Part shown: one piece after another, positions 24,073 to 49,283 of the stretch
Position numbering within the stretch: position 1 is the stretch's first letter
How the letters are laid out: each line of letters starts with the position of its first letter
Assembly (NCBI GenBank): GCA_913055615.1
Contig: CAJXKK010000007.1
Span: forward strand, 1 to 64,000
Direction of reading: 5' to 3'
DNA: 64,000 nucleotides
Source: an uncultured Ectothiorhodospiraceae bacterium
GTDB lineage: Bacteria > Pseudomonadota > Gammaproteobacteria > XJ16 > Halofilaceae
Position numbers and translations under genes: made by a program
Notes under the pieces: model-generated
Told to the model about the DNA's origin: nothing
Database searches by the model: none
Seen by the model: the letters and a program-made list of their open reading frames with translations, nothing else

Positions 24073-24376
24073 GGAACCACGGATGGACACAGATGAACAC
24101 AGATATACTCAGTGATCCCTTTGAGGGGACTGGAGCTTCGCTGAAACCGGGCACGTGAATTTAGGGCCAATTCCGGAACCACAAGATGAACACAAAATAA
24201 CGCCGTGTGGATGTCGTCCGGTGCGCTCTGACTTGAGCTTTATTTTGTGTCCATTTCGTGTTCACTTTGTGGTTCTGAATTTACCTGTCGGATACGTCCG
24301 TGGTCTCAGCGAAGCTCCCGAGCGCGGAAGTTACCCCTCATCATCTGTGTTTATCTATGTCCATCTGTGGTTCTAC
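24073..24376. repeat. Nested three-level inverted-repeat element, copy 1
   Basis: The 338-base gap after ettA holds no gene but three concentric inverted repeats. Outer arms: GGAACCACGGATGGACACAG... (24073-24105) and the matching CATCTGTGTTTATCTATG... (24342-24376). Middle arms: GGAGCTTCGCTGA (24132-24144) and TCAGCGAAGCTCC (24306-24318), perfectly complementary. Inner arms: CCACAAGATGAACACAAAAT (24179-24198) and a mirror with ATTTTGTGTCCATTTCGTG (24242-24260) through TTTGTGGTTC to 24277. The inner arms use CACAAAAT-type words and the outer arms CACAGATG-type words, and each pairs with its own partner. Short peptides read across these arms are artefacts. Confidence 0.85.
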
Positions 24377-46165: not shown

Positions 46166-46188
46166 GCGGGCACGTCCCCAATGTGCGT

Positions 46189-46220
46189 GCGCCGGCCGAT
46201 CACCCATGATCGGCCGGCGC
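46189..46220 (+). other. Intergenic hairpin between TAXI binding protein and TRAP permease
   Basis: A perfect 14-bp stem (46189-46202 GCGCCGGCCGATCA, 46207-46220 TGATCGGCCGGCGC) with a 4-base loop CCCA, 23 bases after the TAXI stop. No T-run. Same position relative to gene order as the hairpin at 431-470 in the ABC importer. Likely stabilises the upstream mRNA or attenuates downstream expression. Confidence 0.7.
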
Positions 46221-46258
46221 CGCACGGTAATCATCCCGCCTGTTCCGGTCGGCACGCG

Positions 46259-48877
46259 ATGACGCAAACTGGCGGTACCGACAACACGGCGGGGCGTGAC
46301 CCGGATTCCATCCAGCGACTGCTGGAGACGGACAGCGGCGCAAGGCATCCGGCCGGCCCGACCGGACACCTGCTGCTGGTCGTCGCCCTGTGCTGGTCGC
46401 TGTTCCAGCTCTGGCATGCATCGCCCCTGCCCTACATGCTGGATTTCGGGGTGTTCAACAGCACCCAGGCGCGCGCCCTGCACCTCGGCTTCGCACTGCT
46501 GCTCGCCTGGCTGGCATGGCCTGCGCGCCGGGGGCACACCGGCGACACGCGCATACCCTGGTTTGACTGGGTGCTGGCGCTGACGGCCGCCTTCGCCGCC
46601 ACCTACGTGTTCTGGTTCTACGCCGGGCTCTCGGAGCGGCCGGGCGCGCCATTGATGCGGGATATCATCGTCGCGGGGATCGGTATGATCCTGCTGCTCG
46701 AGGCCGCCCGGCGGACATTGGGGCTCCCGCTGGTGATCGTGGCGCTCGTGTTCCTCGCCTACGTCTTTTTCGGCGATGCCGCCATACTGCCGGAGATGCT
46801 TCGCTGGAAGGGTGCGTCGATCAGCCGCGCCATGTCGCATCAGTGGCTGACGACGGAGGGCGTCTACGGTATTGCGCTCGGCGTCTCGACCAGTTTCGTC
46901 TTCCTGTTCGTGCTGTTCGGTTCCCTGCTGGAACAGGCCGGTGCGGGCGGCTGGTTCATCCGGGTCGCGTTCTCACTGCTGGGCGCCATGCGCGGCGGGC
47001 CGGCGAAAGCAGCGGTACTGGCATCGGGTATGACCGGGGTCATCTCCGGCTCCTCGATCGCCAACGTGGTGACCACCGGTACGTTCACCATCCCGCTGAT
47101 GGGCGGCGTCGGATTCACGCGCGACAAGGCCGGTGCGATCGAGGTGGCGAGTTCCGTCAACGGGCAGTTGATGCCGCCGGTCATGGGCGCGGCGGCATTC
47201 CTGATGGTCGAATACGTCGGCATCTCCTATGTCGAGGTCATCCGGCACGCGATCCTGCCAGCCATCATCGCCTACGCGGCGTTGCTCTACATGGTCCACC
47301 TGGAGGCGCTGAAGGGGAACATGCAGGGGCTCCCGCGGCGCCATCCGTGGAATCCCCTGCACGCGGTCATCGCCTTCGGCCTCACCATCGCCGGCCTGAT
47401 CATCCTGAGTGCAGGGGTCTACTGGGGAATGGGCTGGATTCGGGGGCTCGCGGGCGATGCCGCCGTGTGGATCGTCACCGCCGTGCTCGCGGTCATCCAT
47501 ATCGGGCTGATCCGCCACGCCGCGCGGTTCGCGCCCGCTACCGAGGACGACCCTGAGGCTCCCCGGACCGAGCTCCCGGATCCCGGGCCGACAATCCAGT
47601 CCGGGCTGCACTTCCTGCTGCCGGTGATCCTCCTGATCTGGTGCCTGACGGTCGAACGCCTGTCACCGGGCCTGTCCGCCTTCTGGGCCACCGTGGCGCT
47701 GATCCTCATCCTGCTGACGCAGCGTCCGCTTTTCGCGTGGTTCCGCGGCGATGTCCCGATCGCGCCCGAGATTCATCGGGGCGGGATCGAACTGGTCCAT
47801 GGCCTCATCGGCGGCGCCCGCAACATGACCGGGATCGCGGTAGCCACCGCGACCGCCGGGATCATCGTCGGCACCGTGACCCTGACCGGCATCGGCCAGG
47901 TCATGACCGAATTCGTGGAGCTGATCTCAGGCGGCAACCTGCTCGCCATGCTGATCCTGACGGCCTTCATCTGCCTGGTACTCGGTATGGGCCTGCCCAC
48001 CACGGCCAACTACATTGTCGTCTCGTCGCTGATGGCGCCGGTCGTGGTCACGCTGGCCGGCGAACAGGGCCTGATCGTCCCGCTCATCGCGGTCCATCTG
48101 TTCGTGTTCTATTTCGGCATCATGGCCGACGTCACGCCACCGGTCGGTTTGGCCTCGTTCGCGGCCGCCGCGGTATCCGGCGGCGATCCGATCCGAACCG
48201 GTGTGCAGGCATTCGTATACAGCCTTCGCACCGTCGTTCTGCCGTTCCTGTTCCTGTTCAACACGGAACTGCTGCTGATCGGTGTCGACAGCGTCCCGCA
48301 TCTGATCCTGACGACGACCGTGGCCATCATCGGCATGCTCGTATTCGCGGCCGGTACCCAGGGATGGTTCCTGCGCCGCTGCCGGCTTTGGGAAACCGTG
48401 GCGCTGTTGCTGGTCGCTTTCTCGCTGTTCCGGCCCGGTTTCTGGGTCGACCGGATCGTCCCGCCGTTCGAGGACATCTCCGCGGCGAGACTGCAGGGAT
48501 GGGTGGAGGAACTGCCGGCGAACGCCGATCTGCGACTGGTGGTCGAACGCGAGGACTTCCATGGCGATACGAAATCGATCGTGACCGTCATCGACGCCGG
48601 GCCGAAGGCCGACTTCAACACGCGCATGCGTGAGGCGGGCTTCGTATTCCTGGAGCGCGACGGCGACGACTGGACCGCCGAACCGGCCTTCAACGGCCCG
48701 CTCGACGATCCCCGCTACAAGCCCGCCATGACCATCGAACAAATTCGCGCTCCGGTCGAACAGCCCGCCCGCGAATGGATCTACATCCCCACCCTGCTGC
48801 TACTCGCCGGCATCATGGCGGTGCAATTACGGCGTCCGGACGACTTCGAGAAAAGAACCACGAATGAACACGAATGA
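46259..48877 (+). CDS. TRAP transporter fused permease (DctQM type, TAXI-associated)
   Basis: An 872-residue inner-membrane protein, combining small and large TRAP membrane subunits. The N-terminal third has DctQ-like helices; the DctM part includes GMTGVISGSSIANVVTTGTF, MGLPTTANYIVVSSLMAPVV and FGIMADVTPPVGLASFAAAA, typical for TAXI-type 4TM/12TM fusions. The C-terminal 150 residues form an extra soluble domain and final helix. The ATG at 46259 is chosen for its lack of overlap with the hairpin. The final residues and TGA stop lie in a dispersed repeat, so the native C-terminus may have been changed. Confidence 0.93.
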   Translation: MTQTGGTDNTAGRDPDSIQRLLETDSGARHPAGPTGHLLLVVALCWSLFQLWHASPLPYMLDFGVFNSTQARALHLGFALLLAWLAWPARRGHTGDTRIPWFDWVLALTAAFAATYVFWFYAGLSERPGAPLMRDIIVAGIGMILLLEAARRTLGLPLVIVALVFLAYVFFGDAAILPEMLRWKGASISRAMSHQWLTTEGVYGIALGVSTSFVFLFVLFGSLLEQAGAGGWFIRVAFSLLGAMRGGPAKAAVLASGMTGVISGSSIANVVTTGTFTIPLMGGVGFTRDKAGAIEVASSVNGQLMPPVMGAAAFLMVEYVGISYVEVIRHAILPAIIAYAALLYMVHLEALKGNMQGLPRRHPWNPLHAVIAFGLTIAGLIILSAGVYWGMGWIRGLAGDAAVWIVTAVLAVIHIGLIRHAARFAPATEDDPEAPRTELPDPGPTIQSGLHFLLPVILLIWCLTVERLSPGLSAFWATVALILILLTQRPLFAWFRGDVPIAPEIHRGGIELVHGLIGGARNMTGIAVATATAGIIVGTVTLTGIGQVMTEFVELISGGNLLAMLILTAFICLVLGMGLPTTANYIVVSSLMAPVVVTLAGEQGLIVPLIAVHLFVFYFGIMADVTPPVGLASFAAAAVSGGDPIRTGVQAFVYSLRTVVLPFLFLFNTELLLIGVDSVPHLILTTTVAIIGMLVFAAGTQGWFLRRCRLWETVALLLVAFSLFRPGFWVDRIVPPFEDISAARLQGWVEELPANADLRLVVEREDFHGDTKSIVTVIDAGPKADFNTRMREAGFVFLERDGDDWTAEPAFNGPLDDPRYKPAMTIEQIRAPVEQPAREWIYIPTLLLLAGIMAVQLRRPDDFEKRTTNEHE

Positions 48878-49283
48878 TTTGCCTGGAGCAAATCATCGCG
48901 CAAGCCCCGAAGGGGCGAGGCGCAAGGACGCGCCGAGCAATGAACACGTATGCTGCCGCCTGGGGGTCGAAGGCGTTCCGGAGCTTCGCTGATATTTTAC
49001 GGGTGCATCGCGCGTAGGTAGAACCACAGATGAACACAGATAAACACAGATAAACACAGATAAACACAGATAAAATCGGAAAGTCGATAAGGTATAGATA
49101 TCTGGCCCCCGATCATTGCCTCGAGGTTCGATTACCGTCGCCTTCGACTTTTATCTGTGTCCATCTGTGTTCATCTGTGGTTCTTCTAGCCTGCACTGAC
49201 CCCGGAGACTCTCAGCGTAGCTCCCGGGAAATCACCGTTTCGGGAGAACCATTCGTGTCCATTCGTGTTCATTCGTGGTTCTT
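48855..49283. repeat. Nested three-level inverted-repeat element, copy 2
   Basis: The 421-base gap to the cysteine synthase gene has no gene. Outer arms use CGAATG words: ACCACGAATGAACACGAATG (48857-48876) and CATTCGTGTCCATTCGTG (49250-49267) on to GTGGTTC at 49275-49281. Middle arms: GGAGCTTCGCTGA (48980-48992) and TCAGCGTAGCTCC (49212-49224), one mismatch. Inner arms use CACAGATG words: 49021-49075, including three exact TAAACACAGA decamers (49041-49070), and 49149-49185. The order and middle arm match the element at 24073-24376. A 9-bp hairpin (48874-48896) overlaps the TRAP stop codon. 48897-48950 adds short GC hairpins. Confidence 0.85.

Follow-up and report, generated by a model that had tools for sequence, protein, structure and literature searches.

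The palindrome at positions 48855-49281 of the window, the whole 64,000-nucleotide stretch of DNA that was analysed, is probably (roughly 55%) a nested foldback element made of MITE-like relatives of GxxExxY elements stacked by serial insertion. The inverted arrays of ~10-bp words would form the termini of small mobile units of one class, the coding form of which would carry a single gene for a GxxExxY (TIGR04256/PDDEXK_3) PD-(D/E)XK nuclease, each protein clade having its own words. The non-coding palindromes of the genome under study (G000) bear the words of the 'LGHGLLEKPYENAL' clade and would most simply be MITE-like relatives of the coding unit, each tier being one unit inserted into an older one. 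The words would then agree within a tier since one unit carries both arms, and disagree between tiers since the units come from different word classes, and as outer shells decay, the word class seen at a given site could shift over time. The nuclease may act on the words and move or copy the units, and one arm may be copied from the other via the hairpin.

The order outer arm, GGAGCTTCGCTGA, inner arm, inner mirror, TCAGCGTAGCTCC, outer mirror, which the sequence-only reading had described, is present at 48855-49281, and sequence inspection and arm alignment give a three-tier palindrome over this span. Its parts, preceded by the first such locus of the window, are listed below, G002 being a sister species.

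24074..24373, no strand: first locus, with an outer CAGATG class, an inner CAAAATG/CGAAATG class and the middle motif at 24132-24144 and 24306-24318
48855..48872, plus strand: left outer word array, part 1 (GAACCACGAATGAACACG), kept in G002 at the same site
48873..48938, plus strand: 66-nt insert with three small hairpins within the left outer array, missing from the orthologous G002 array
48939..48952, plus strand: left outer word array, part 2 (AATGAACACGTATG), from sequence and comparison with G002
48953..48979, plus strand: left outer spacer, locus-specific and weakly paired at this locus, from comparison with G002 and spacer pairing
48980..48992, plus strand: middle motif GGAGCTTCGCTGA, from motif search
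48993..49020, plus strand: left inner spacer, unpaired, with spacer pairing tested for the whole family
49021..49074, plus strand: left inner word array of five CAGATG/CAGATA words, from arm pairing
49075..49149, no strand: central loop, diverged from G002
49150..49183, minus strand: right inner word array of three CAGATG-class words, from arm pairing and pattern search
49184..49211, minus strand: right inner spacer, from sequence
49212..49224, minus strand: middle motif mirror TCAGCGTAGCTCC, with one mismatch, from motif comparison
49225..49249, minus strand: right outer spacer, from sequence
49250..49281, minus strand: right outer word array of three CGAATG words, from arm pairing

The outer arms at 48853-48876 and 49260-49283 are complementary at 24 of 24 nucleotides, and the inner arms are 88-95% paired, with five words in the left inner array against three in the right; the right middle arm is one base off the exact complement of the left. 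A search of the window for the word-array pattern with up to three mismatches gave six matches against 0.00 expected in shuffles. The middle motif alone is not unusual at three mismatches (21 found, 27.7 expected), unlike its exact paired copies, which are unusual. As RNA, the locus has a predicted fold of -195 kcal/mol (z -10.1 against shuffles). A known structured RNA family was rejected as an identity for the palindrome, since the Rfam search gave no family above the gathering score and sub-threshold, chance-like matches only. The upstream ORF at 46181-48877 (DctM/DUF3394) ends inside the left outer array, which provides its final codons and stop (EKRTTNEHE). The 66-nt insert has 14 distinct copies in G000 loci and one in G002 loci, and both strands of its first stem vary (GATTTGC/GCAAATC versus GATTCGC/GCGAATC), as a pair-preserving structure would.

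Across G000, the middle motif with at most one mismatch occurs 76 times against seven in a reversed control, and the pattern AACCACnnATrnACACnnATr, at the same tolerance, 181 times against none; most of these 181 word arrays are members of nested inverted pairs. When the word classes are written as a (CGAATG), b (CAGATG), c (CAAAATG/CGAAATG) and d (AAAAATGG), with > for the middle motif, G000 loci read as nested palindromes whose commonest grammar is a>b and whose rarer ones are b>c, b>a, a>b>c, a>d and single-tier a>loop; simple b elements occur without the middle motif. The four classes combine freely as tiers. As the sequence-only reading had noticed, the word class of each tier differs between 24074-24373 and 48855-49281 while the arms stay paired, and the genome-wide class map bears this out. 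The G000 palindromes have terminal inverted repeats, as classical MITEs do, and such inverted short repeats are present in many copies as intergenic hairpins, the locus at 48855-49281 being one among dozens of nested ones. Element counts come from pattern searches and retrieved stretches rather than one whole-genome scan, and they are minima, since contigs of the 87-contig draft begin or end inside elements; the palindromes break the G000 assembly and are hence undercounted. Contigs with ends within such elements are C5, C6, C13, C29, C30, C51, C59, C71 and C73. L186:1530-2330 holds a tandem duplication that takes in the upstream flank and left half of an a>d element.

The tiers can be followed at shared sites by comparison with G002 and with a further sister species, G001, used as the outgroup. 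Flanks of G000 and G002 are mostly about 85-93% identical, and 29 of 32 retrieved G002 palindromic loci have an element in the same G000 gap (27 at the first comparison and two more by targeted search); in the reverse direction, five of six queried G000 loci have an element in G002. The gap of the first locus (24074-24373) holds a CGAATG element in G002. An outer a tier is kept around an inner tier that is b in G000 and d in G002 at L031-L200, L024-L191, L035-L183, L043-L202, L015-L201, L022-L255 and L023-L259, and an outer tier of class b in G000 corresponds to one of class a in G002 at L010-L190, L006-L253, L213-L187, L216-L201, L217-L196 and others. Interiors as well as words differ at the class-switched sites. 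The L024 element resembles L057 at another site (86% over 306 nt) and is unrelated to the G002 element at its own site. The L022 site has a>b in G000, a>d in G002 and, in G001, a plain hairpin where the element is missing; the L193 site has a in G002, b in G000 and no element in G001. Pristine tiers are enclosed by decayed ones at L201, L187, L190, L194 and L376, so that the tiers seem to stem from insertions made at different times, one inside another.

The idea that one ancestral insertion simply decayed, against which the sequence-only reading had argued, is rejected because tiers at shared sites differ between G000 and G002. The active copying or correction proposed in its place holds only in part: it is not the whole account, since the tiers turn over independently, and the outer tiers kept around swapped inner ones, the pristine tiers within decayed ones and the empty outgroup sites largely show arms that arrived as independent insertions. 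Between L014 and L251, the interior is apparently inverted between G000 and G002, with outer arrays and flanks unmoved. At L185/L372, where G002 has an a element, all that G000 retains is GGAACCACGAATGA, joined to the start codon that follows, apparently through a loss in G000 that left an end remnant.

Loci with the exact word pattern are found in Verrucomicrobiota, Planctomycetes, Acidobacteria, NC10, Cyanobacteria, Proteobacteria and others, and at several of them the arrays enclose a short GxxExxY-family ORF. GxxExxY genes lie exactly between inverted arrays of CAGATG in G000 (C6), of CGAATG in G002 (C14) and of CGAAA in G001 (C12), and CGCCAAG arrays flank a GxxExxY gene at a locus common to G000 and G002 (C5 and C11, respectively), so that the genus has five such genes between inverted arrays of four word types; just two GxxExxY genes are present in each of G000 and G002, which tells against the nested-insertion reading. 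The 'LGHGLLEKPYENAL' clade is represented by one gene between CAGATG arms in G000 and one between CGAATG arms in G002, and the ends of the non-coding elements match those of the coding element in the same genome (the G000:C6 gene with its CAGATG arrays). Also against that reading, the analysis found no tie of the middle motif to any GxxExxY gene.

Pseudomonadota genes picked by protein alone likewise lie between inverted arrays. For 105 GxxExxY genes, the inverted-repeat score between upstream and downstream sequence has a median of 20.5; the median is 8.5 when pairs are mismatched and 9.0 in control ORFs, some of which overlap elements, so that mismatched pairs are the cleaner control. Of the 105 genes, 83 reach or exceed the 95th percentile of the mismatched scores (14.5). 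The words are clade-specific, word similarity tracking protein identity with close pairs excluded (Mantel r 0.25, 0 of 2000 permutations). PDDEXK_3 is present in 29 of 29 genomes selected solely by word arrays, these being the whole genomes behind word-array loci and so chosen for their words, against 18 of 120 random Pseudomonadota and 3 of 14 controls. In one genus (L386-L405), a GxxExxY element lies between trpD and trpC in 14 species (470-626 bp) and is absent in six, four with clean gaps of 9-12 bp and two with remnants. As to a target-site duplication, the empty sites hint at a flanking ATGA at each end, a sequence that the two genes themselves require, and flanks elsewhere are too diverged. 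The CGCCAAG-type GxxExxY element common to G000 and G002 is near trpE and is different from this trpD-trpC element.

The GxxExxY protein scores 120.6 bits against TIGR04256 (cut-off 35), matches PF13366 and has invariant PD-(D/E)XK residues E28, D67 and K79. Its predicted structure has a PD-(D/E)XK nuclease fold with a pLDDT of 96, and a structure search with this fold gave lambda-exonuclease and Cas4-like matches; the fold is predicted with confidence. Libraries of anti-phage and phage families gave no nuclease match beyond one at chance level. The gene between the arrays is a member of the GxxExxY/PDDEXK_3 family (TIGR04256, PF13366), and the flanking arrays go beyond what the literature searched says of this family, whose mentions there are few and mostly incidental annotations; a literature search on the word sequences and GxxExxY, with most subscription papers outside its coverage, found no account of flanking arrays.

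The part of the copying claim that finds support concerns the outer spacers. The spacer between the outer array and the middle motif is locus-specific, yet self-paired (0.63 and 0.67 within loci versus 0.49 and 0.53 between loci), a level reached by 0 of 2001 shuffles in each of two genomes, and the pairing is perfect at L008, L015 and L202 and 96% at L032. The inner spacers, from the middle motif to the inner array, showed no within-locus pairing in the family test. Outer spacers that are locus-specific and yet self-paired need a process beyond nested insertion, and they point either to arms copied one from the other or to arms born as foldbacks.

These outer spacers fit an explanation close to that of the sequence-only reading, in which fixed palindromic sites are rewritten in place, arms being copied via hairpins (quasi-palindrome correction) and words being spread by gene conversion. 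It would also suit L008 of G000, where the two arms are identical while those of the orthologue L207 in G002 are unpaired, and the sites common to both species at which G000 has class b and G002 class a. In simple CAGATG elements, the arrays are alike over 30-40 nt at 95-100% and the loops are unrelated, which plain copy-and-paste of whole elements would not predict; such array likeness without loop likeness keeps rewriting alive. It is nevertheless rather unlikely, since the inner spacers are unpaired, switched sites differ in interiors beyond the words, fresh tiers lie within decayed outer shells, and each arm of the orthologous CGCCAAG nuclease element in G000 and G002 has drifted on its own.

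It is improbable that the palindromes are retained because they terminate transcription in both directions or act as RNA hairpins, their conservation resulting from function and not from mobility. Such a role would agree with the strong predicted fold, with the plain hairpin of G001 at the element-free L022 site and with the flanking genes, which are convergent or tandem at 32 of 33 scored G000 loci (divergent at one) and at 22 of 25 G002 loci, divergent flanks being rare; but neutral insertions would avoid promoters too, and the nesting, the class switches, the clean empty gaps and the word arrays by which GxxExxY genes are flanked in many phyla are left unexplained. Mobilisation of REPIN-like repeats by a RAYT (Y1 HUH) transposase is highly improbable, because the Y1_Tnp genes, although present in all three genomes, are unlinked (none of the six loci examined is near words, middle motif or insert) and G001 has them yet lacks such arrays, even if the published REPIN-RAYT system has a similar layout, with short repeats in inverted orientation that form hairpins between genes (PMC3116915).

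In that system, each sequence class of the repeats is tied to its own gene on the chromosome (Bertels and Rainey 2011, PMC3116915), and the likeness to the elements here extends to dozens to hundreds of inverted short repeats, intergenic hairpins and classes linked to one gene. In contrast to that system, the ends here are arrays of ~10-bp words instead of single REPs, the linked gene encodes a PD-(D/E)XK nuclease instead of a Y1 transposase, and the nesting is concentric, up to three word classes deep. The elements are not assigned to REPIN-RAYT, since they show no linkage to the Y1 transposase that defines it. To our knowledge, word arrays and per-tier classes are absent from descriptions of ERIC/RUP/MITE-type sequences. 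These sequences are likewise non-coding, intergenic inverted repeats in many copies, and those with known partners have IS-type transposases (review PMC2229807). The nearest published paired-word repeats are the GGGAATC heptamer arrays of Xanthomonas, which are also tandem short words in inverted pairs (about 70 convergent pairs, the pair type usually kept between species); unlike the ~10-bp words here, their words are of 7 bp, and no general association with mobile elements was reported (PMC4692102).

With nested insertion of GxxExxY-related units as the preferred reading, the position of GxxExxY genes between inverted word arrays in many phyla suggests a widespread class of tiny mobile elements with non-coding relatives, a class that is apparently undescribed. 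Two orphan facts are thereby joined: short-word repeats are scattered over the genomes of many phyla, and small nuclease genes without an assigned role make up a large family. The clade-specific words amount to a code that is directly testable at the bench, and the nested tiers log successive insertions at fixed sites, so that word-class history can be read as layers. A wider proposal is put forward tentatively: GxxExxY genes may be the core of widespread, undescribed minimal mobile elements, in which the nuclease would recognise its own words, spread itself and word-ended foldback DNA and regenerate arms via the hairpin, with PF05635 elements as a second branch. Genes of PF05635 (23S rRNA IVP / four-helix-bundle) often lie between inverted arrays of ~7-bp words (L348-L371), and the inverted-repeat score of 16 of 22 such genes clearly exceeds the 99th percentile obtained for mismatched pairs, which suggests that the design may be broader than GxxExxY.
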